From Alphaproteobacteria bacterium (GTDB lineage Bacteria > Pseudomonadota > Alphaproteobacteria > Caulobacterales > Parvularculaceae): a stretch of 64,000 bases of DNA. The notes beneath the pieces were generated by a model. The model saw nothing but the letters and a program-made list of their open reading frames with translations. It was not told the origin of the DNA and searched no databases. A program made the translations under genes and the position numbers. The DNA is taken from assembly GCA_030433215.1 (NCBI GenBank), contig JAUIMC010000016.1:1-64000 (forward strand), in the 5' to 3' direction. Positions within the stretch are counted from its first letter, which is position 1; every line of letters starts with the position of its first letter. Positions 11,083 to 58,472 of the stretch are shown in pieces.

Positions 11083-11295
11083 CCGGGGGCGCGAACTGCG
11101 CTCTCGCCGGAATCATGAGCGCGGCGGCGACCTATGCGCTGGCCCGCCGGGGCGCGCGTCACCCTTTTTCAACAGTTCGGCTTCGGCCATGACCGCGGGT
11201 CTTCGCACGGCGTCACAAGGCTTTTTCGCAGCGCCTATAAGGAATTCGATTTCCTGAAGCACGCGCGGTTTTCCGGAAACCAGGCTGACGCCTAA
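11079..11295 (+). pseudogene. Remnant of a sarcosine / N-methyl-amino-acid oxidase (FAD-dependent) gene
   Basis: Two frames joined by a shift near 11150 read like the N-terminus of monomeric sarcosine oxidase or N-methyltryptophan oxidase. Frame one (ATG 11079 to TGA 11192) gives GIMSAAATYALARRGA, the dinucleotide-binding helix region. The next frame continues RVTLFQQFGFGHDRGSSHG and VTRLFRSAY, matching the family's EQF...HxRGSSHGxTRxxRxAY pattern. It stops at 11293-11295 after only about 70 residues; the rest of the roughly 380-residue enzyme is absent. A GCGCGC tract at 11150-11157 lacks two bases relative to a continuous frame. The end overlaps the stop of the convergent gene at 11292. It cannot give a functional enzyme. 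Confidence 0.8.
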
Positions 11296-12020
11296 CCGCC
11301 TATCTTAAAGGCGAATTTGTAGGGAATGTAGATTTTCAGCGCCAAGGGGCCGGTTCGCTCCCAGCGCACAACCTGCTCAAGCCCGGAAATTGCCGTTTCC
11401 GAGGCCCCCAAAGCCTCGCTTTGCTGTTGCGCGTCCGCGCGGATCTCAGCCGTCAATTGCGTCCGGTACCGTTCGACATTGACGATGGAAAGCTGGGTGT
11501 CGCCTTTCTGCTCGGCCAGCGTGCGCCCTTCAAGCTTGAGTGCTTTAACGAAGTCTTCTATGCGCGCCGCCGCCGCTTCGAGACTGTCCCCGCTTTCTTT
11601 CACGGGCGTCTTGACGACCACGGATTGAACCGACGTATCGGATCGCCCGTATTGCGGCGTAAAACTTTCCTCATCGACGGCCTCATAGGGTTTTGGAAAG
11701 TAAAGCGTGTCGTAATCGTCTTCATATTCGACGAGCGTCGAAAGCTCTATGTCATTGCGCCGGCGCGCGGATGCGATCAGCCCCTCAAGCGTTCGCGTCA
11801 GCTCCCGCCGGCGCTGCGCCCTGTCGCGCGTGTCGCAAACGAAATCATAGGATATCAAAACGAAATCTGCGTTTCGGATCAGAGAAACCGTCGGCACGGT
11901 GTCCGAGGCGAACCGTTCCAGCCTTGAACCTGTAACGACGATTTCATCATTATATTGCGCATAGGCGGATGCGCCTGAAGCCAGGCAGACGAAGACCGCC
12001 ATTACGAAAGTCCGGATCAT
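11292..12020 (-). CDS. Exported protein of unknown function with a TonB-box-like N-terminus
   Basis: 242 aa. Signal peptide MIRTFVMAVFVCLASGASAYA, then QYNDEIVVTGSRLERF. This last stretch is the mature N-terminus usual for TonB-dependent receptors of this group, yet no plug or barrel follows. The remainder is soluble: VSLIRNADFVLISYDFVCDT, an acidic middle, a helical segment (SLEAAAARIEDFVKALKLEG) and a C-terminal YIPYKFAFKIGG. I do not recognise the family. ATG 12020 is preceded by GGAGGG at slightly long spacing. It lies 81 bp after pdhA on the same strand, where pdhB would be expected. Confidence 0.7.
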   Translation of the reverse strand: MIRTFVMAVFVCLASGASAYAQYNDEIVVTGSRLERFASDTVPTVSLIRNADFVLISYDFVCDTRDRAQRRRELTRTLEGLIASARRRNDIELSTLVEYEDDYDTLYFPKPYEAVDEESFTPQYGRSDTSVQSVVVKTPVKESGDSLEAAAARIEDFVKALKLEGRTLAEQKGDTQLSIVNVERYRTQLTAEIRADAQQQSEALGASETAISGLEQVVRWERTGPLALKIYIPYKFAFKIGG

Positions 12021-12101
12021 GCAGGAGCCCTCCCGTCCCAAGCAGGACGGGATGATCGCATCAAAGCCGGCTGCTGAAAAGCCGGGCGTCGCCCGGAAGA
12101 C

Positions 12102-47952: not shown

Positions 47953-49011
47953 TCAGGCCGGCTGCTGCTGGGAAATGCAGTGAAAGGAGCCCCCGCCGGT
48001 CAGGATGTGCGAGGAATCGACGGCGCAGAAATAGGGACGATCGATAAGCCCTTTGAGGATTTCCGCCGCCTCATGGCCCGGCCCGGCCTCGCCGGTGAGC
48101 TTTTCATAGACCGGCATCACGACCGAGTGATTGGCGATGTAAAAATTCATGTGGCTCGCCGCGGCGGGCTCGCCCTCGAGCTCCACGCGCCCCGGCGAGG
48201 GGATAGTCACAACCTCCAGCTTGCGGCCGGCGGCGTCGGTTTGCCCCGCGAGGGCTTTCTCGATGGCGGCCAGAACCTCCGCATTTGGATCGTTGTCACC
48301 GGTAGGACGCATACAGACGACTTTGCCCGGCGTGACGAAGCGCGCAAGATTGTCCACATGGCCGTCGGTGTGATCGCCCTCAAGGCCTTCATCGAGCCAG
48401 ATGACCTTTTCGGCGCCGAGCGCGGCTTTTAACACCGCCTCGACGTCTTTCTCGCTCATCCCCGGATTACGATTGTTGTTGAGAAGACACTGGCGCGTGG
48501 TGATGAAGGTTCCCTCGCCGTCGGTCTCGAGCGCGCCGCCCTCGCCGGTGAAGTCGTCGAAACGGCGCAGGCGCGCGCCAGCGAGGTTCGCGACGACGCC
48601 GGCGATCTCGTCATCTTTTTCGAGACGGTATTTCCCGCCCCAGCCATTGAAAGCAAAGGCGCTGGCGGCGCGCGCGCCGGTTTCGTCTTTCACGAAAACA
48701 GGCCCGGTGTCGCGCAGCCAGATATCGCCGATGGGCGCTTCGTGGATGGTCAAGAGCGACGGGTCCGGCAGATGCCCGCGCATAATCTCCGCCGCCGCGA
48801 TAGCGTCGGCGCCGCGCGCCAGAAGATGCACCGGCTCGCCGCGTTCGCCCGCATCCTCGCCGCCGGGGAACAGGATCGCGCGGATCAGATCCTCGACCTC
48901 CGCCCGGGCGGGGCCGAGATCGTCCTCCCAGAGCTCAACGGCGCTCGGCCAGCCGATCCAGACGGCGTCATGGGGGGCCCATTCGGCTGGCTGACGGCGC
49001 GATGAGAGCAT
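47953..49011 (-). CDS. aguA: Agmatine deiminase
   Basis: 352 aa. Hydrolyses agmatine to N-carbamoylputrescine in the arginine decarboxylase route to putrescine. It begins QPAEWAPHDAVWIGWPS, as the family does, then GDIWLRDTGPVFVKDE, EGGALETDGEGTFITT, LLNNNRNPGMSEKD, DGHVDNLARFV and the C-terminal nucleophile GGGSFHCISQQQPA. ATG 49011 follows GAGGA; the upstream frame to 49383 runs over the FMN riboswitch. aguB is not in the window. A peptidylarginine deiminase-like role is less likely. Confidence 0.92.
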   Translation of the reverse strand: MLSSRRQPAEWAPHDAVWIGWPSAVELWEDDLGPARAEVEDLIRAILFPGGEDAGERGEPVHLLARGADAIAAAEIMRGHLPDPSLLTIHEAPIGDIWLRDTGPVFVKDETGARAASAFAFNGWGGKYRLEKDDEIAGVVANLAGARLRRFDDFTGEGGALETDGEGTFITTRQCLLNNNRNPGMSEKDVEAVLKAALGAEKVIWLDEGLEGDHTDGHVDNLARFVTPGKVVCMRPTGDNDPNAEVLAAIEKALAGQTDAAGRKLEVVTIPSPGRVELEGEPAAASHMNFYIANHSVVMPVYEKLTGEAGPGHEAAEILKGLIDRPYFCAVDSSHILTGGGSFHCISQQQPA

Positions 49012-49100
49012 GAACGGGTCCTCAACTTTGTGTTCTCGGTCATTGCCGCGGGACGGCCTCACGGTTATATAGGCCTCGCGGAGCAATCCGCGACATAGAA

Positions 49101-49263
49101 ATCTTCGGGGCGGGGTGAAAGTCCCCACCGGCGGTAATGCGAAGGATTTTATCCTTCGATGAGCCCGCGAGCCGAGGCGAACGGCCTTTTTCAAGGCCAT
49201 GAGCCAAAGCAGGATTCCGGTGAGAGCCCGGAGCCGACGGTCATAGTCCGGATGAGAGAAGAT
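49101..49263 (+). ncRNA. FMN riboswitch (RFN element)
   Basis: The conserved RFN core is clear: TTCGGGGCGGGGTGAAAG then TCCCCACCGGCGGTAAT, GAGCCCGCGAGCC, GCAGGATTCCGGTGAGA and GCCGACGGTCATAGTCCGG ending GATGAGAGAAGAT. The P1 stem pairs ATCTTC at 49101-49106 with GAAGAT at 49258-49263. A variable hairpin (AAGGATTTTATCCTT) and a second (ACGGCC ... GGCCAT) correspond to peripheral stems. High FMN is expected to turn off the downstream TBDR and MFS genes. Confidence 0.97.
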
Positions 49264-49404
49264 TGACGCGGAAAGGACGGCGCTTTTGCGCCTGCCTTTC
49301 AAGCATGTGCGCAGGCGGATTCCGCCTTGTGTCATGCGCCTTTTGCGTTGATGCGGGCTTTCCGTCCGCCTTCCCTCCTCCATCCCCGATTCCGGAATTG
49401 GCTA

Positions 49405-49430
49405 TGCGCCTTCGGCGCGGATTTTATTTT
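49405..49430 (+). terminator. Candidate attenuator of the FMN riboswitch
   Basis: GCGCC-TTC-GGCGC hairpin at 49406-49418 followed by GGATTTTATTTT, 142 bp after the aptamer and 28 bp before the TBDR ATG. This is the form of an intrinsic terminator and fits control by premature termination. Alternative pairing with upstream GGCGC-rich segments (49280-49350) is possible but was not folded. Confidence 0.5.
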
Positions 49431-49458
49431 GCGCTTCGAGCGCGGGGATAGAGTTGCG

Positions 49459-51846
49459 ATGCGTAAGACGGGTTTGTGTTTCACCATAACGGCTTTGCTG
49501 TCGGGCGGAGCCTTGGCGCAGGACCGGGTCGACGAGATCATCGTCACGGCGGACCCCTTGGAGCTCGTGGAGCTCGAGGACAGCCGCGCGGTGATGGGGC
49601 TCGACCTTTCCTATGCGGAAGCGCCGCGCTCGGTGAACGTCGTTTCCGATGCGCTGATCGACCGCTTTTCCATCGAGACCGTGGACGATCTCGCGGCCTT
49701 CGCGCCCGGAACCTTCACGGGCAGCTTTTTCGGCGTGCCGGGCTCGGTGTCGCTTCGCGGCAATCGCGCCGACACCTATTTCAACGGCTTCAAGCGCGTT
49801 GAAAATCCCGGCACTTTTCCGACGCCGCTCGGCGCCAGCGAGCGCATCGAAATCGTCAAGGGCCCGACCCCGGCGGTCTATGGCGCAGGCCGGGTCGGCG
49901 GTTTCCTGAACATCACGCCCCTGACCGCGCGCACCGCAAAAGACGTCGCAGCGGAGGGCCGTCTCCTCTCACTCGAGGGAACGCTCGGCTCCTACGGCAA
50001 GCGCATCATTCGCGGCGACGCGGGCGCGGCGTTCGATCTCGGGTCTTACGAGGCGGGCGTTTACGCCCATGCCGAATACGAAAACTCCGACAGTTTCTAT
50101 CGCGGCATTGAGCCGGAAAGGACGCTCGTTCAATCGGCGTTCACACTGGCGCGCGACAATTTCGATGCGGAGTTTGGCGGCGCCTGGTTTTCCTCGACCG
50201 GCTACAAACAGACTATCGGCTGGAACCGCGTCACGCAGGACCTGATCGACAATGGAACCTACATCACCGGCCGCGATACGGATCTTTCCGATCTCAACAG
50301 CGACGGCAAGCTGACCCCCGACGAGGTCGACGCGGCGGTCGGAACCTTCTTCGGGACCTCAAATATCCGCCAGCTTGTGGATTACGGCGTCTTCCCCTCG
50401 CCCGCCTTCGCGCTGGATGAAGGCGTCGGAACCGCGACACTGTCCCCGCGCAAGGTTTACATCGCGGATGAAGACATCGCCGACGCGGAAACTTTCACCG
50501 CTTACGCCGATCTCGCCTGGTCTTTGGGGGAGGATACGCTGCGCCTCCAGGGCTTCTACGATTCCATGGATAGCGATCTTTACGTCAGCTACGGCTTCGC
50601 GGCGGAATATGTCGCGGACGTCTTCGAACTGCGCGGCAGCTACGCTTTCGATGTCAGCGCCGGACCGGTGAGCCTCGACGCGCTGCTCGGCGCCTCCTAT
50701 CGGTCCTACGACAACGAAACCCGCCAGACTTTCCTGTCGGGTTATCTCGCCGTCGACCGCCGCGACCTGACCGTGGGGCCTACGGGCAGCGACATTTTCG
50801 ACGATCCGTTTTCGCAAGAAGCGAACGGCATCGGCTGGGACACTGATCTTTACTCGAAGACCACGGACCTCGCCTTTTTCGCCGTCACCGACATCGCCTT
50901 TTACGAACGCCTGCATCTTCTCGCGAGCGCGCGCCTCGACCGCTTCACCGCCTCAGCGATCAACACCGGCGGCGCCATCTTCAATCCGGCGCTGGGTTTT
51001 GTCCGCCTCAAGGACGACGATGTTCAGCCGAGCTACGAATTGTCCCTGCGCTACGACGCGACGGACGCCGTCTCCGTCTACGCGACCTTTGCGGAGAACA
51101 ATGCGCTTGAGACCAATGACGGCGGCGGGATCGAGGTCGACCGCATCGACCAGAGCAATTTCGTCGCCGATTCCACTCTCTATGAGGCGGGCGTCAAACT
51201 CTCGCGCCGCGACCTCGTCGGCTCCCTCGCCTTTTATCGCCAGACGCGCCAGCGATCTGACCCGTTCGGCAATCTCGACGAGGAAACCTCGAAGGGCGTT
51301 GAGGCGGAGCTGAAATATCTCCTCTCCGACGAGTTTTCCGTGAACGGCGCCGTCACCTGGCAGGAAACGCGCATCGGCGCGCCGGGCCCGTGCGGCTCCG
51401 GCAATGGCGAGTTCGTGGTCATTCCGCCAAGCCGCGCGGGGCTCGCCCCGGCGGACGGCTATGGCGGTCTTTTTGCAGCGCTCAACGCCTCCTGCCTTGC
51501 GGAGTTGCAGGACGGCTACGCCCGCAACACCGCACCGGAATGGCTCGCCTCCGGCTTCGTCACCTATACGGGACCGGAAACGTCCATCGGCGCCTTCGGC
51601 GCGTCCGTCGGCGGCGTCTATGTGGGCGAGACCGGCGGCAAGATCGACAATGCGATCGTCCTTCCCCGTTACGTTCTCGCCAAGGCGGCGTTCTTTTACG
51701 AGATGGGCCGCGTCTCGCTGATCGCCAATATCGACAATCTTTTCGACAAGCGTCACTTCGTGCCCGTGCAGAATGTCTATGAGGAAGTCGGCGTGTTGCC
51801 GGGACGCGGGCGCGAATTCACCGTCACCCTGAAAGCACGGTTCTAG
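49459..51846 (+). CDS. TonB-dependent receptor under FMN riboswitch control (candidate riboflavin/flavin importer)
   Basis: 795 aa. Signal peptide MRKTGLCFTITALLSGGALA, TonB box DEIIVTA just after the cleavage site, plug domain with SVNVVSDALIDRFSIETVDD, FGVPGSVSLRGNRADTYFNG and RIEIVKGPTPAVYGAGRVGG. The barrel ends in FTVTLKARF with the terminal Phe needed for assembly. ATG 49459 gives the signal; the upstream frame from 49327 crosses the expression platform. Downstream MFS gene starts 8 bp after the stop. Receptors of this size are usual for siderophores or cofactors; riboflavin is proposed here from the riboswitch only. Confidence 0.93.
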   Translation: MRKTGLCFTITALLSGGALAQDRVDEIIVTADPLELVELEDSRAVMGLDLSYAEAPRSVNVVSDALIDRFSIETVDDLAAFAPGTFTGSFFGVPGSVSLRGNRADTYFNGFKRVENPGTFPTPLGASERIEIVKGPTPAVYGAGRVGGFLNITPLTARTAKDVAAEGRLLSLEGTLGSYGKRIIRGDAGAAFDLGSYEAGVYAHAEYENSDSFYRGIEPERTLVQSAFTLARDNFDAEFGGAWFSSTGYKQTIGWNRVTQDLIDNGTYITGRDTDLSDLNSDGKLTPDEVDAAVGTFFGTSNIRQLVDYGVFPSPAFALDEGVGTATLSPRKVYIADEDIADAETFTAYADLAWSLGEDTLRLQGFYDSMDSDLYVSYGFAAEYVADVFELRGSYAFDVSAGPVSLDALLGASYRSYDNETRQTFLSGYLAVDRRDLTVGPTGSDIFDDPFSQEANGIGWDTDLYSKTTDLAFFAVTDIAFYERLHLLASARLDRFTASAINTGGAIFNPALGFVRLKDDDVQPSYELSLRYDATDAVSVYATFAENNALETNDGGGIEVDRIDQSNFVADSTLYEAGVKLSRRDLVGSLAFYRQTRQRSDPFGNLDEETSKGVEAELKYLLSDEFSVNGAVTWQETRIGAPGPCGSGNGEFVVIPPSRAGLAPADGYGGLFAALNASCLAELQDGYARNTAPEWLASGFVTYTGPETSIGAFGASVGGVYVGETGGKIDNAIVLPRYVLAKAAFFYEMGRVSLIANIDNLFDKRHFVPVQNVYEEVGVLPGRGREFTVTLKARF

Positions 51847-51854
51847 GAGCCTTC

Positions 51855-53102
51855 ATGTTCGTCAGCAAACGGGCCGCGGGGCTCTACATCCTCCTCTGCC
51901 TCATCTTCTTTCACATCACGGCCGCGACCTTCGCGTCGCTCGGCGTCGTCCTGCCGGCGATGATCGCAGAGCTGCAATGGAGCTGGACGCAGGCCGGCTT
52001 CGGCTTCACCGCGCTCGCCCTCTTCACCGGCCTGTTCAGCCCGGTCGCTGCGGAAAGCCTTAAAAAGCTGGGACTGCGCGGCAATTACGCGGCGGGCGGC
52101 GCGGCCATGGCTGCGGGCTTTTTCCTCCTCGGCGCGGCGGCGGCCCTGCCCGCCTATCTTGTCGCCACCTCGCTTCTGGGCGCCGGTTTTGCGCTCCTCG
52201 CGAATGTGCCGAGCACTTATGTCATTGCACAGACGGTGTCGGCGCGGCGGCGGAATTTTTTCATCGGCGCTTATCTTGCGGCAGGCGGCGCCGGCGGCGT
52301 CGCCGGGCCGTTGATGGCCCATAGTCTGCTCGAAGGCGGCGAGGACTGGCGGCTCTACTGGCGCCTCGCGGCGCTGTTGATGCTGATGCTCGTTGCGGCG
52401 TTTCTGTTCTTCGCCGACAGCCGTTTCCTGGGCGGACGCGAGGCGCGCAACGCCGGCGCGCAAACGCCCGAAGACGACCCCCGCGCCGACAGAGCCGCGC
52501 CCCACGACTGGACCCTGAAAGAGGCGCTGTGCGCGCCCGGCTTTTACCTTATTGGGGCGGCGCTGATGGCCGCCTATTTTTGCGGCGTCTCGGTGTCGAG
52601 CTGGGCGGTGACGCATCTCACCGGGCTCGGCCTTTCGGCGGGCTTCGCGAGCGCCATGCTGAGCCTTCACGCCGCCTCGAACGCGCTCGCGCGCGCCGCC
52701 GGGGGCGTCGCCGTCAAACGCTTTCGCGCGCGCTATCTCCTGATTTCCGGGCTCGCGGCGGAAGCCGTCGGCATGATCGCGCTGTCCTTCGCCTATGACA
52801 GCAACATCGCCGTTATCTTCGCGCTGTTCGAAGGCTACGCCTTCGGCATGATCCTGTTCGCGACGACGGTGCTCGCCATCGAGTATTTCGGCATCAAGAA
52901 CTCGCCAGCCATTCTCGGGGCCATGAACCTCTTCGCGACCGTCGCCATGCTCGGCCCGGTGCTGACGGGCCTCACCGGCGACGCCTTCGGGAGCTTCTCG
53001 CCGATCTTCATCATTTACGGAACCGGCGCCGGCCTCCTAGCACTTCTCGCCCTCTTCGTGCACAACCCGAACGAAACCATTCCTTCGCGCAAACAGGGCT
53101 GA
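51855..53102 (+). CDS. MFS transporter, RfnT-like candidate riboflavin permease
   Basis: 415 aa with 12 predicted membrane segments. Two-halved MFS layout: N half FASLGVVLPAMIAELQWSWT and GLFSPVAAESLKKLGLRGNY, a central charged loop (about 195-218), C half FYLIGAALMAAYFCGVSV, LSLHAASNALARAAGGVAV. AGGAG lies just before ATG 51855 and the gene is 8 bp after the receptor, so it is in the same riboswitch-controlled operon. Riboswitch-regulated MFS riboflavin permeases (RfnT) are known in alphaproteobacteria; sequence identity was not measured. Terminated at 53126-53153. Confidence 0.88.
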   Translation: MFVSKRAAGLYILLCLIFFHITAATFASLGVVLPAMIAELQWSWTQAGFGFTALALFTGLFSPVAAESLKKLGLRGNYAAGGAAMAAGFFLLGAAAALPAYLVATSLLGAGFALLANVPSTYVIAQTVSARRRNFFIGAYLAAGGAGGVAGPLMAHSLLEGGEDWRLYWRLAALLMLMLVAAFLFFADSRFLGGREARNAGAQTPEDDPRADRAAPHDWTLKEALCAPGFYLIGAALMAAYFCGVSVSSWAVTHLTGLGLSAGFASAMLSLHAASNALARAAGGVAVKRFRARYLLISGLAAEAVGMIALSFAYDSNIAVIFALFEGYAFGMILFATTVLAIEYFGIKNSPAILGAMNLFATVAMLGPVLTGLTGDAFGSFSPIFIIYGTGAGLLALLALFVHNPNETIPSRKQG

Positions 53103-53175: not shown

Positions 53176-56100
53176 TTAGAAGTCGTAACGCAGGCCGAAC
53201 TGAACGCTCCACACCGAAAGGCCGGTGTCGATATCTTCGTCGTCGCGCCAGTCGGTGTTGACGTCGGTGATCACGATCTGGTTCGCCATGCTCGGATCGA
53301 CATTGTCGAGCTCCGCCGTGATGAGATCGACGATCCGGTAGGAGCTGGACGCCGAGAATGACCGGAAAACGCCCCACTCGTCATTGAGGAGATTCGGCAG
53401 GTTGTTGATGTTCGTGAAGAAGGTCAGCGTATGACCGTCCATCACGCCCGGGAAAGTCTGCTCGAAGCGCATGTCGAGCTGGCTGTACCAGCTGTCATAG
53501 AAGCCGTTTCTCGGCGCATACTCTCCGCGATAGGCGTCGAGGCCGGTCTCGGCGAGCACGCGGTTGAAGTCCTCTTCAACCTGGGCGCTCGCAAAGGCCA
53601 CGAGCGGATCGTCAACGAGCGGGATGTAGGGCAGCTGACGATTGATCGACGTATCGTAGTCGCCATAGAGGTTGTTTTCCTGCTGCTGGCCGTCGAGGCT
53701 GCTTGAGCCCAGATTCGTGTCGAGCGTGTAGCTGTAGGGACGCCCGCTATTGGCCGAACCGAAGAAGGAAACGCGCGATACGACGTCGTCGCTCCAGCGA
53801 TGCTCCAGATCAAGGCGCGCGCGCAGCGCGTGCTTGTTCATATAGTTGGAATTCGCTGCAAACGGCCGGTTGATGTCGACCCGCGCCGTGCCTTCAAAGC
53901 TCGACCACGCGGTCGAGCTGGTGCCGCCATGCACTTCTTCCACGTCGGAATACGCATATCCGAAATTGAAGTGAACGGAGCGGTTGTCGAACTCCCAGGT
54001 CTTGTCGAAATAAGCCGACAAAACCAGGCTCTTCGGCGTCGTATCCGCATTGGTCAGCATGTAGACTTCCTGGTCCGAAAATTCTTCGTATATCGGACGC
54101 CCGTCAGGCGCGGTCGCAATCTCCTGCTGGCTGAGCGAGACGAAGTTGTAGGGGTTCGAGCCGAGCGTGTAGAGCGCGTCGGCGCCGATCAGCCAGTCTT
54201 CGCCAAGGGGACCCAGATCGGCGGTGTATTGCGCGCCGAGGCTGAAGCGCCAGATCGACGGGATTTTGAAGTCCGGATCGAGAAGCGCGACCGAGCCCGT
54301 GCCAGCAAGCGCCGACGCGGTGTTGGCGTCCTGCAAGGCGGCCGGGATGGTGTAGCCGTCGAAGCCGTCGCCGACATTCACGGGAACGCCCGAGCTGAAG
54401 TTGTTGGCGTAACCGGAATTGATGCCTGTATTCTGGAAGGTGTTGGAAATCCAGACTGACGGATCGCCGCCCGAGAAGCGGCCGACGCCGCCCGTCACGC
54501 GGAGATTGTTCATCGCCTGCCAGTCGAACGCGACCCGCGGCTGGATGATGCCCGTGCTGTCGAGCGTCGCGGTGTTGGGAACGCCATAGGTCGCCTCAAC
54601 GGCGGCGTTTTCGGTGATGTCCGGGAAGCCGGAAAAGAAGTCGTAGCGCAGGCCAGCCGTCAGGTTGAGCGTCGGCGATACGGTGAACTCATCCTGAAGA
54701 TAGATCGAGTGCAGCAAGCGCTCGACCGTCGCGCCGGTGTCGAGCTTGTCGTTGGTGGGCGCGCTCGAATACTCGATGAAGCTCGGCATCTGCGCCGCAT
54801 AATCAGCGATGCTGTCAAATTCAGCATGACCTTCGCTGTTGAACGCGTAGACGTTGAACCATTCTAGCTGTTCGAGTTCGTAGCCGAAGGTGAACAGGTG
54901 GGCGCCAGTCTGATAAGCGCCCTTGGCTTTGATCTGCAGCGTGTCCTGCTTCAGCTGGTTGGCGTGACGGTTCGGGTCCGGCCCCACATGGATCGTGCCG
55001 CCGTCATCTGTCCCGATTTCCATCCACGCGAAGTCAGTGCCGTTCAGAGCGTCCTGAATGGTTTCGCGGTCCTGGTAGGAGACTTTCAGTTCGGTCGAGA
55101 AGTTGTCGGTCCAGTCCGAGAACAGACGGCCGGAATAGTTTCTGAGTTTCTCGCCGCGCTGATACCAGTGCGAGGGATAGGAGAAGTTGCCGCCGCCGCC
55201 GGTGAACAGGTCCCAGGTGCGAAGCTGGCTGCCGTCAGTGTTCTGATAGGCGAGCTCAAGACGGTGGTCTTCGGTGATGTAGGCGTCGATCTTCGCGAAG
55301 TAACGGCGATCCGAGGTCGGCGCGCTGGTGAAATATTCAAGCGGATCGTAGTTGTAGACGCTGCGCGAGATGTCGAGGACCTGATTGTAATCGGCCTGGG
55401 TGACGCTCGAAATCTCGTTGGCCACGCCCGAACCGGCGTAACCGACATCGACCGTGTCGGAGCCCGAGAATTTCTCATAGGCGAACGTGAAGAACAGACG
55501 GTCCTTGATGATCGGGCCGCTGAGCGAACCGCCCCATTGCTTGGCGTCGTTGGACGGGCGCGGAACGTCGATAGTGCCGCTCTCGAGCGACGCGCCGTTC
55601 ATCAGCGCGAAGTCGTAATTCAGGAACATGCCGCCATGAAGCTCGTTCGAGCCCGATTTCGTCACGACGTTGATGTTACAACCCGTGAAGGAGCCGTATT
55701 CGACGTCGAACGGCGCCAGTTCGACCGACACCTGCTCCACAACATCATAGGGGAACGGCATGCGCTGGGTCGGGTAGCCATTGTCGTTGAGGCCGAAATC
55801 GTCATTCTGCTTGACGCCGTCAACGGTGAGCGAGTTGGCGCGGTTGTTGCCGCCGGCGCAGTAGATGCCGTTGCCCTGGTCCGTGCGCTCGTCGATATTG
55901 ATGCGCGGGTCGAGGCGGATGATGTCTTTGATGTCGCGGTTGAAGTTCGGCAGATTGTCGAGATCGTCCGAAGTGAAGGTCGCGGAGGGGCCGGTGGCCA
56001 GATCGGCGACAACCGAGCGGGTGGCGACGACGACGATTTCGTCAGCGCTCGCGCCCGCGCTGGAAAGCGCGAAGGTCAGGTAAGAGGTGTCGCCCAGCGA

Positions 56101-56418
56101 AAGGCCGACGCTTTCAACCGACTTGCCCTGATAGCCGGACGCCGTCGCGGTCACAGTGTACTCGCCCGACACCGAAAGGTTGGTCGCCGAGAAACGGCCC
56201 GAACTGTCCGTCGTCACCAAGCGCGAAGCGCCGGTGTTGGTGTTGACGATCGACACGGAAGCGCCGGAGATCGGCGCGCCGGCGCCGTCGGTCACGACGC
56301 CGCGAACGTCAGCGGTCGTCTGCTGCGCATGCGCCGGAGTCGGCGCGACAACCGTCGTGAAGGCGGTCGTGATCGCAATCGCCGCCACGCCGGCGGAGAG
56401 CGTATTCATAAGTTTCAT
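53176..56418 (-). CDS. Oar-like TonB-dependent receptor with carboxypeptidase-regulatory domain
   Basis: 1080 aa. Signal peptide MKLMNTLSAGVAAIAITTAF ... AHA. Then a carboxypeptidase-regulatory-like domain (ADVRGVVTDGAGAPISGASV; GEYTVTATASGYQGKSVESV), the TonB-box-like DEIVVVATRS, a plug with DRDIKDIIRLDPRINIDERT-like text and GGNNRANSLTVDGVKQNDDF, VVTKSGSNELHGGMFLNYDF, and a very long barrel ending in RYDF. This is the layout of Myxococcus Oar and related large receptors. ATG 56418 preceded by GGGGAT. Substrate unknown; peptide or protein uptake or secretion has been proposed for the family. Confidence 0.9.
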   Translation of the reverse strand: MKLMNTLSAGVAAIAITTAFTTVVAPTPAHAQQTTADVRGVVTDGAGAPISGASVSIVNTNTGASRLVTTDSSGRFSATNLSVSGEYTVTATASGYQGKSVESVGLSLGDTSYLTFALSSAGASADEIVVVATRSVVADLATGPSATFTSDDLDNLPNFNRDIKDIIRLDPRINIDERTDQGNGIYCAGGNNRANSLTVDGVKQNDDFGLNDNGYPTQRMPFPYDVVEQVSVELAPFDVEYGSFTGCNINVVTKSGSNELHGGMFLNYDFALMNGASLESGTIDVPRPSNDAKQWGGSLSGPIIKDRLFFTFAYEKFSGSDTVDVGYAGSGVANEISSVTQADYNQVLDISRSVYNYDPLEYFTSAPTSDRRYFAKIDAYITEDHRLELAYQNTDGSQLRTWDLFTGGGGNFSYPSHWYQRGEKLRNYSGRLFSDWTDNFSTELKVSYQDRETIQDALNGTDFAWMEIGTDDGGTIHVGPDPNRHANQLKQDTLQIKAKGAYQTGAHLFTFGYELEQLEWFNVYAFNSEGHAEFDSIADYAAQMPSFIEYSSAPTNDKLDTGATVERLLHSIYLQDEFTVSPTLNLTAGLRYDFFSGFPDITENAAVEATYGVPNTATLDSTGIIQPRVAFDWQAMNNLRVTGGVGRFSGGDPSVWISNTFQNTGINSGYANNFSSGVPVNVGDGFDGYTIPAALQDANTASALAGTGSVALLDPDFKIPSIWRFSLGAQYTADLGPLGEDWLIGADALYTLGSNPYNFVSLSQQEIATAPDGRPIYEEFSDQEVYMLTNADTTPKSLVLSAYFDKTWEFDNRSVHFNFGYAYSDVEEVHGGTSSTAWSSFEGTARVDINRPFAANSNYMNKHALRARLDLEHRWSDDVVSRVSFFGSANSGRPYSYTLDTNLGSSSLDGQQQENNLYGDYDTSINRQLPYIPLVDDPLVAFASAQVEEDFNRVLAETGLDAYRGEYAPRNGFYDSWYSQLDMRFEQTFPGVMDGHTLTFFTNINNLPNLLNDEWGVFRSFSASSSYRIVDLITAELDNVDPSMANQIVITDVNTDWRDDEDIDTGLSVWSVQFGLRYDF

Positions 56419-56487
56419 GTTGATATCCCCAAGCTGAGTCTGCAGCCCTGCAGTTTTGTGTGCAGCGCGAAATACGCGACTGGCCTT

Positions 56488-56516
56488 AGGTAAAGTAGAT
56501 GACAAATGGATGACAA
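56488..56516 (-). promoter_or_regulatory. Candidate sigma-70 promoter of the Oar-like gene
   Basis: Minus strand TTGTCA at 56516-56511, 17 bp, TTACCT at 56493-56488; ATG 56418 is 70 bp downstream. Weak -10 match. The rest of 56419-56705 holds only a 10 bp-stem hairpin at 56671-56698 near the argS stop. Confidence 0.3.
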
Positions 56517-56705: not shown

Positions 56706-58472
56706 CTACATGCGTTCCGGCGCCGAAAAGCCGAGCAACGACAAAACAAGATCGAGCTGGCCGCCGACCGCAGAGGCCAGCGCAAGGCGCGAGGCCCGGA
56801 TATCGGCGTCGGCCTCGTCGGCGATTCGGCACGCCGCGTAGAACTTGGAAAAACTCTGGGCGAGCGTGAAGGCATGATCGCACAGGAGATGCGGCAGGCG
56901 CCGTTCATAGGCGTCGCGCAGCGCATCGGCGAAGCCGAGCAGCACAAGGGCGAGGTCGATTTCCTCCGGCGCGGCGAGGATCGCCGCCCCCGCCTCGCCC
57001 GCGCCCGCCGCCCTGGCCTTCGCGACCACCGAGCGCACCCGCACGCTGGCGTAGAGAAGATAGGGGCCGGTCTTGCCCTCGAACGCCATGAAGCGGTCAA
57101 GATCGAAGATGTAGTCGCTGGTGCGCGGGTTCGAGAGATCGGCGAATTTCAGCGCCGCGACGCCCACCTGGCGGGCGACTTCCTGCGTCTCCGCCTCGCC
57201 ATAGCCTTCCGCAAAGCCGTTCTCCACGAGGCGCTCGCGGGCCTTGTCGGTCACGGTTTCAATGAGATCGCGCAGCTTCAGGGTGCCGCCCGCGCGGGTC
57301 TTGAAGGGCTTGCCGTCCTTGCCGTTCATGGTCCCGAACCAGAGATGCTCGAGCCGCGCCTCGTCGAAATAGCCGGCCTTTTCGACGGCCCGGAAGACCT
57401 GTTCGAAATGCAGCCGCTGGCGGGCGTCGACCACATAAAGCATGCGGTCGGGATCGAGGGCGCGCTTGCGGTCAACGATGGTGGCGATATCCGTCGCGTG
57501 ATAGCCCACCGCGCCCTCGGAATTGAGGAAGATGATTGGCGGCATCTCCTTGTTGTCGTCCTCGCGGGCGACCCGGATGATCTCAGCGCCGTCGGATTCC
57601 TCGAGGACGCCGCGCGTTTTGAGATCCTCCGTCAATTCCGGAATCAGCGGGTCGGCGTCCGCCTCGCCTTTCCAGAGATCGAATTCGACCTCGAGATCGG
57701 CATAGTCCTTTTTCATGGCGTTGACGGACAGCGTCACGAAATGCCGCCACAGGGCTACATAGCCAGGCCGTCCGCTCTGCAACGCCTTGGTCGCCTTGCG
57801 GGCGATGTCGGCGCGGGCTTTGTCGTCTTTGCACGCCGCCGAAGCCGCCGGATACATTTCCTCGAGATCGGAAAGACTTATGGGCGGGTCTTCAGGAAAC
57901 GGGCCTTGCGCCGCCGGATCGAAATAGACGAGATCGGGCTGGCGCAGTTCGAGCTCGGAAATGAGCTGACCCATTTGCAGGCCCCAGTCGCCGAGATGCA
58001 CGTCGCCGGTCACGTCGTCGCCGGCAAAGCGCATGATCCGCTTCAGGCTCTCGCCGATGATGCCGGCGCGCAGATGGCCCACATGCAGGGGCTTGGCGAC
58101 ATTTGGCCCGCCATAATCGAGAACGATCTTTTCCGGCGTCTCTTTGCTCCAGCCGCCGAACCGGCCGCCGTCGGCGCAGAGCGCGTCGAGGCGCGCGGCG
58201 AGGAAGTCCGGGGTGAGCTTGAGATTGATGAAGCCGGGACCGGCGACCGTGACCTCGGCGAATTCCGGGCGGGCGGCCAGGCGTTCGGCGATGGCCCCGG
58301 CGATCTCGCGCGGGTTCTTTTTGGCGGCCTTGGCCGCGGCGAGCGCGCCGTTGCACTGGAACTGGGCGAGATCGGGCCGGTCAGCGGCTTTCACCGCACC
58401 GAGACTCGCGTCGAGCCCTTCGGCGGCGAAGGCCTCGCCGGCGATGGCCGACAATTCGTCTTTCAGGGTCAT
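56706..58472 (-). CDS. argS: Arginyl-tRNA synthetase
   Basis: 588 aa class I aminoacyl-tRNA synthetase. N-terminal tRNA-binding domain (ADRPDLAQFQCNGALAAAKA), HIGH equivalent AKPLHVGHLRAGI (HVGH), FGTMNGKDGKPFKTRAGGTL in the KMSKS region, and the DALR C-terminal domain (VRVRSVVAKARA; YERRLPHLLCDHAFTLAQSF). ATG 58472 overlaps the TGA of the preceding lipoprotein gene (ATGA), so the pair are translationally coupled. Confidence 0.96.
   Translation of the reverse strand: MTLKDELSAIAGEAFAAEGLDASLGAVKAADRPDLAQFQCNGALAAAKAAKKNPREIAGAIAERLAARPEFAEVTVAGPGFINLKLTPDFLAARLDALCADGGRFGGWSKETPEKIVLDYGGPNVAKPLHVGHLRAGIIGESLKRIMRFAGDDVTGDVHLGDWGLQMGQLISELELRQPDLVYFDPAAQGPFPEDPPISLSDLEEMYPAASAACKDDKARADIARKATKALQSGRPGYVALWRHFVTLSVNAMKKDYADLEVEFDLWKGEADADPLIPELTEDLKTRGVLEESDGAEIIRVAREDDNKEMPPIIFLNSEGAVGYHATDIATIVDRKRALDPDRMLYVVDARQRLHFEQVFRAVEKAGYFDEARLEHLWFGTMNGKDGKPFKTRAGGTLKLRDLIETVTDKARERLVENGFAEGYGEAETQEVARQVGVAALKFADLSNPRTSDYIFDLDRFMAFEGKTGPYLLYASVRVRSVVAKARAAGAGEAGAAILAAPEEIDLALVLLGFADALRDAYERRLPHLLCDHAFTLAQSFSKFYAACRIADEADADIRASRLALASAVGGQLDLVLSLLGFSAPERM

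Follow-up and report, generated by a model that had tools for sequence, protein, structure and literature searches.

A TonB-dependent receptor and an MFS permease behind an FMN riboswitch: a predicted riboflavin uptake operon at the site of the rib operon

The two-gene operon described here is very probably (roughly 0.86) an FMN-repressed vitamin B2 scavenging system that replaces the riboflavin synthesis (rib) operon at one site in riboflavin auxotrophs. It lies in a 64,000-nucleotide stretch of DNA from an alphaproteobacterium of the Parvularculaceae (contig JAUIMC010000016.1), called hereafter the window, to which the coordinates of the following features refer.

47953-49011, minus strand: agmatine-deiminase-like gene, upstream flank common to both versions of the locus (assigned from its G004 ortholog, under the curated cut-off; start codon picked by eye, matching its relatives)
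49097-49267, plus strand: FMN riboswitch aptamer (RFN element; Rfam RF00050, full-length)
49268-49458, plus strand: leader of 191 nt from the aptamer to the receptor start, with one terminator-like hairpin at chance frequency
49459-51846, plus strand: TonB-dependent receptor (TBDR) of 795 aa, predicted outer-membrane importer of riboflavin or another flavin (Plug domain, AlphaFold model, alignments)
51855-53102, plus strand: MFS permease of 415 aa, predicted inner-membrane riboflavin importer (PF07690, AlphaFold model)
53176-56505, minus strand: large gene for a TonB-receptor-like protein of 1109 aa, a downstream flank found at some loci of either version (assigned from its G013 ortholog, which gave only weak matches)
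56706-58472, minus strand: argS, downstream flank common to both versions of the locus (family assigned from its G018 ortholog)

The riboswitch and the two genes behind it

A covariance-model search with RF00050 (gathering score 66.2 bits) gave a match of 95.5 bits (E 9.1e-21) that covers the full model (1-138) and is the sole one across the 3.75 Mb genome. The arms of the P1 stem lie at 49101-49106 (ATCTTC) and 49258-49263 (GAAGAT). An earlier sequence-only reading had claimed an RFN element with such a closing stem, and the Rfam search that it had proposed as a check bears this out. A terminator-type expression platform was rejected, since the leader holds a single terminator-like hairpin (49405-49419) against a mean of 1.0 in shuffled sequences; furthermore, the fold of the leader was uninformative and gave no expression platform.

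The next gene encodes a protein with a Plug domain (PF07715, 52.6 bits against a cut-off of 23.9, E 7.4e-14) and without a match to the Pfam barrel model PF00593. Its AlphaFold model (pLDDT 83.5, pTM 0.86) was compared with the PDB and all 50 matches listed are TBDRs, which points to a plugged outer-membrane beta-barrel fold. Near its N-terminus, a DEIIVTA stretch is what we take to be a candidate TonB box. The second gene starts 8 bases after the receptor stop. Its product matches PF07690 (E 7.3e-28) and its AlphaFold model (pLDDT 88.4) has MFS carriers as best PDB matches. This permease stays below every NCBIfam cut-off, the best curated model being that for L-lactate (OFA/monocarboxylate type; 70.6 against 320 bits). 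The order read from the letters alone, i.e. a TBDR directly behind the RFN element and an MFS gene 8 bp further on, is therefore correct. The operon consists of these two genes and contains no riboflavin synthesis gene, as had also been claimed, nor any phosphatase, nucleotidase or catabolic gene.

Elsewhere in the window (11292-12041, minus strand), a 249-aa reading frame with a signal-like start, far shorter than a TBDR, carries a DEIVVTGSR stretch that presumably is TonB-box-like.

One site, two alternative cassettes

The DNA behind all riboswitches was compared by tblastn in a sample of 100 genomes (the window genome and 99 relatives). An FMN riboswitch above the cut-off is found in 54 of them, one apiece. 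It is followed by rib genes in 39 genomes, by this TBDR in 11, by both in none and by something else in four. On long enough contigs, the rib cassette has the order ribD-ribE-ribB-ribH-folE, except in G063, where folE is missing from the locus; curated models confirm all five families in G013. The MFS gene follows the TBDR in 9/11 riboswitch-TBDR loci, that is, in every one whose contig extends that far. The four other riboswitches are that of G030, whose contig stops 128 bases on, that of G071, which precedes a different TBDR, and those of G077 and G089, which precede a ribH copy.

Several of these loci show peculiarities of their own. In G077 (L100) and G089 (L102), the ribH gene behind the riboswitch is a second copy and is followed by a gene encoding a 4HBT thioesterase in G089 and a relative of it in G077. 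Behind the riboswitch-controlled rib operon of G013 (L061:4202-5026), as at other rib loci, comes folE, which encodes GTP cyclohydrolase I. In G013, ribB is without a ribA part and an in-frame helix-turn-helix-like stretch, under the cut-off, stands ahead of folE. In G045 (L064), a gene for an EamA-family transporter, which we take to be of the RibN type, is inserted between ribD and ribE of the riboswitch-controlled operon.

The two cassettes share their surroundings. Upstream, all 11 TBDR loci have the agmatine-deiminase-like gene, as do seven rib loci (G002, G017, G021, G022, G039, G047 and G053). Downstream, argS is found at eight TBDR loci and 13 rib loci, partly behind the large TonB-receptor-like gene; as for the remaining TBDR loci, G023 has no argS within 8 kb, and those of G005 and G058 lie on contigs that stop too early. 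Both flanks are present around eight TBDR loci and four rib loci. Moreover, TBDR and rib cassettes both occur inside each of two genera (g1 and g6). Hence, the uptake pair occupies the position that the synthesis operon has in close relatives. A single exchange event was rejected, since the trees of the flanking genes need three cassette changes (agmatine-deiminase-like gene), two (argS, partial) and three (TonB-receptor-like gene); several branches of the first two trees are weak, so that the number and direction of the exchanges are only tentative.

Riboflavin synthesis genes and the likely cargo

The absence of synthesis genes extends beyond the operon: a whole-genome search found no ribH, ribE or ribB in the window genome (G000). 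A flavokinase gene (PF01687) is present. This organism thus appears, from its gene content, to have lost its vitamin B2 synthesis genes. Close TBDRs (at least 49% identity, or fragments with at least 67%) are carried by 14 of the 100 genomes, two of which (G005 and G058) are known as carriers from partial genes (67-89%). All 14 genomes lack ribH, ribE and ribB. In 11 of them the riboswitch lies upstream and thus stands directly before a gene for membrane transport. Near the receptor genes of G031 and G001 (49-50% identity), no FMN riboswitch match was found up to E 1, and the G027 contig begins about 200 bases before its receptor gene.

The same contrast appears across 348 genomes sampled from the order, where ribH is present in 0/15 carriers of a close TBDR versus 312/333 other genomes (Fisher p 7e-17, shared descent ignored) and, among genomes at least 90% complete, in 0/9 versus 290/304 (Fisher p 1e-11, again with shared descent ignored). 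The fifteenth carrier, G316 (68% fragment), also lacks ribE. Since the genome of the carrier G004 is 99% complete in a single contig, an assembly gap is unlikely to be the reason for the missing genes. A flavokinase domain was found in eight of the ten carriers searched, the two misses being draft genomes (G001, 83% complete, and G005, 89%). Carriers of a close TBDR are predicted to be riboflavin auxotrophs. The receptor and the loss of synthesis can nevertheless be separated. One locus (L128, 58% identity) combines riboswitch, TBDR and MFS genes, yet its genome keeps ribH and ribE, so auxotrophy does not always accompany the pair. Furthermore, seven genomes of the same family (G020, G030, G034, G035, G038, G043 and G051) have neither ribB, ribE and ribH nor the TBDR; several of them are incomplete, and G051 is a single contig with 92% completeness. 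Therefore, rib loss does not require the receptor.

Because ribE, ribH and ribB are gone, the useful cargo is expected to be riboflavin or another flavin that can be turned into it, and a precursor is unlikely to help. The sequence-only reading had proposed riboflavin, another flavin or a flavin precursor; the first two stand and the precursor is unlikely.

G071, which belongs to another family of the order and is 99% complete, has a riboswitch of 97.3 bits directly before a different TBDR (L087:1280-3547). This receptor matches both PF00593 and PF07715 and aligns with that of the window at 26% identity over 178 residues only. The genome lacks ribH, ribE and ribB and has a flavokinase; its genus-mate G063 has the arrangement riboswitch-ribD-ribE-ribB-ribH. 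Judging from this case, the association of an FMN riboswitch with a TBDR in a predicted auxotroph probably arose at least twice. An MnhE antiporter gene lies behind the TBDR of G071.

It is very unlikely that the window receptor imports an iron siderophore, with the riboswitch adjusting iron uptake to the flavin level. Siderophore receptors are its nearest folds and top PDB matches (14-16% identity), it shows weak similarity to TIGR01783 (TonB-dependent siderophore receptor), and cross-regulation between iron and riboflavin has been described (PMC6041382). However, its TIGR01783 score is 120.3 bits against a cut-off of 223.5. Moreover, a siderophore would leave unexplained both the alternation with the rib operon and the absence of ribH in 15/15 close carriers of the order sample.

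Residues 278-289 of the receptor (window 50290-50325) form what we take to be an EF-hand-like loop, whose sequence suggests a calcium site. The receptor might take phosphorylated or complexed flavins (FMN, FAD, flavoprotein fragments), from which a periplasmic hydrolase would free riboflavin for the MFS permease. FMN and FAD are larger than riboflavin, TBDRs handle substrates too big or too scarce for porins (PMC11658791) and the loop could hold a metal that meets phosphate. However, the loop is kept, with few exceptions, in 28 aligned receptors, those of prototrophs included, and the two-gene operon brings no phosphatase or nucleotidase. We consider uptake in this form possible but rather unlikely and retain riboflavin itself as the preferred substrate.

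Relatives of the receptor and of the permease

The family was searched by a pattern-based scan of one genome per species (84,980 species), with an alignment of 12 receptors as query. It yielded 30 loci, 12 of them in genomes already in the sample counts. A riboswitch lies just upstream in ten (L122, L123, L125-L129 and L146-L148), among which only L128 is new; the names of the records are Marinicaulis flavus SY-3-19, Parvularcula or Parvularculaceae MAGs and unclassified alphaproteobacterial MAGs. The other 20 loci have no riboswitch over the gathering score, and L108 and L110 have none up to E 1.

The sequence-only reading had also proposed to place the receptor among other RFN-regulated ones. 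In a tree of 48 rows built by a quick method (the partial rows L144, L145, L149 and L164 being excluded), receptors of the window type that have a riboswitch group together in a clade of 11 rows; ten have the riboswitch and the eleventh is G027. Its sister clade has 16 rows, at none of which a riboswitch was found, and mostly prototroph clades lie outside both. In the sister clade, where genome completeness is known only within the order, ribE is absent in 11/16 genomes and ribH also in the eight tested (G362, G363 and G364 being outside this test). A branch of nine rows in this clade (SH-aLRT 92) lacks ribE in 9/9 genomes and has record names as diverse as Erythrobacter, Caulobacterales, Sphingomonadales, Gammaproteobacteria and Parvularculaceae. 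Of the tree rows that fall in neither clade, G193 alone is without ribH and ribE; G103 has ribE and its ribH was unmatched.

Alignments indicate that two cysteines, Cys645 and Cys679, are common to the auxotrophy-linked clades. They are among the residues that are invariant in the 11 rows of the riboswitch clade and absent from three prototroph homologs. In the sister clade (14 rows aligned), they are conserved in 12/14 and 14/14 rows, respectively. One may guess that they form a disulfide.

Of the genomes sampled from the order, 34 carry a more distant TBDR homolog (38-45% identity). No FMN riboswitch above the gathering score was found at the loci of the 17 of these genomes that were scanned (including G076, G069 and G093). 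Since 33/34 have ribH, the wider family was rejected as flavin-specific within the order; its distant members probably carry other substrates.

Distant homologs of the permease (31-36% identity) were found on six plasmid records. In two of them, from Paraburkholderia (L170:8132-13852) and Acinetobacter (L171:8109-12603), the genes behind the MFS homolog encode an oxidoreductase of luciferase-like type, two hydrolases (a cysteine hydrolase and one of M20 type) and a flavin reductase. The first two enzymes are RutA-like and RutB-like in Paraburkholderia; the Acinetobacter genes are known from annotation alone. An OmpK outer-membrane gene lies ahead of the MFS gene in Paraburkholderia. As for the distant TBDRs, L109 has flavin reductase, isochorismatase and M20 genes as neighbours, and others have ribokinase, LacI, hydantoinase or Rieske genes. 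In an alphaproteobacterial MAG (L144:642-4835), a partial TBDR of the family has as neighbours genes related to coenzyme F420 (CofC, CofD and an F420 ligase that includes an F420-type NADP oxidoreductase domain) and one for a luciferase-like oxidoreductase. Riboflavin lyase (RcaE) was rejected for both oxidoreductases: that of L144 is closest to F420-type methylenetetrahydromethanopterin reductases and that of Paraburkholderia is nearer RutA (1.5e-64) than riboflavin lyase (3.4e-12). These assignments make the catabolism reading only a lead.

The neighbouring genes suggest that the distant relatives may transport uracil-ring compounds for breakdown, which would make a later specialisation to riboflavin plausible. 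In this respect, they resemble the riboflavin and lumichrome catabolic clusters (RcaE, Lum; PMC12746152) and Rut, since distant receptor or permease relatives adjoin flavin reductase, RutA-like and RutB-like genes; unlike these clusters, which serve degradation, the window operon has no such genes and would serve salvage. The window pair itself is very unlikely to import another uracil-ring heteroaromatic (pterin, pyrimidine or lumichrome) for catabolism behind a riboswitch captured by chance. For such a cargo speak the RutA-like, RutB-like, M20 and flavin reductase genes next to the Paraburkholderia MFS homolog, the alike-annotated genes of Acinetobacter and the distant TBDRs near flavin reductase, hydantoinase, ribokinase and LacI genes. 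However, the window operon has no catabolic gene, the riboswitch stands directly upstream of 11 orthologs from two genera, and carriers without riboflavin synthesis genes need flavin from outside. Salvage of riboflavin thus remains the preferred role.

The predicted uptake route among known systems

Comparative genomics strongly supports the two-membrane flavin uptake system that had been proposed from the sequence, both by the cassette at the rib-operon site and by the close carriers without rib genes. When FMN is scarce, the riboswitch would permit production of receptor and permease. At the cell surface, the receptor, powered by TonB, would bind riboflavin (or FMN/FAD), which it would bring to the periplasm; from there, the MFS permease would move riboflavin over the inner membrane. 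The retained ribF-type flavokinase would then convert it to FMN (and FAD) and so trap it, and the FMN formed would close the riboswitch.

To our knowledge, the bacterial riboflavin transporters known so far all act at the inner membrane. RfnT, ImpX, RibXY, RibZ and others were found via the FMN riboswitch, and these four were confirmed by their ability to rescue E. coli auxotrophic for riboflavin; RfnT proteins are defined there by 42% identity or more to O. anthropi RfnT over 90% (PMC4418817). Like them, the window operon has a transporter gene directly under an FMN riboswitch; unlike them, it is led by a TBDR. The text of PMC4418817 makes no mention of outer membrane, TonB or porin. Another parallel is BtuB with the B12 riboswitch (the btuB riboswitch is the title subject of PMC11162775): the architecture is alike, with a vitamin-sensing riboswitch ahead of a TBDR for a vitamin. 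Receptor and ligand are different, with 12% identity in the fold match. Moreover, B12 passes the inner membrane via an ABC carrier, whereas the inner-membrane carrier is here an MFS protein. PqqU (YncD), the PQQ receptor, is a TBDR for a metal-free redox cofactor, as is predicted for the window receptor, and its structure with PQQ (9c4o) is among the fold matches. It differs by its cofactor and shares 14% identity, and we know of no FMN riboswitch associated with it. Riboswitch-linked riboflavin transporters, a B12 riboswitch with a TBDR and a TBDR for a redox cofactor (PqqU) were therefore already known.

The sequence-only reading had considered a TonB-dependent flavin receptor as the less-described part of the system. 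In agreement with this, no report of a TonB-dependent riboflavin receptor was found among the matches listed (titles and abstract starts in the open-access literature, most subscription papers being outside it), and a 2024 review of TonB-dependent transporters mentions neither riboflavin nor flavin. We lean towards the view that this is the first recognised dedicated family of TonB-dependent flavin receptors. This view, for which we have somewhat more than even confidence, includes a make-or-take site exchanged more than once within the bacterial family, a close receptor that predicts auxotrophy and a riboswitch-free sister clade with the same function in other orders.

Dissolved riboflavin is listed at 0.2-5 pM for aquatic environments (PMC7609354), a concentration that would favour an energised receptor over diffusion through porins. 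The locus offers a candidate receptor family by which auxotrophs with an outer membrane might obtain riboflavin at such a level. Marinicaulis flavus SY-3-19 is a named strain with the locus on its contig. Besides, a close receptor may serve as a genomic marker of riboflavin dependence. The locus can also be viewed as a clear example of a riboswitch behind which genes for making a cofactor alternate with genes that, as predicted here, take it from the environment.
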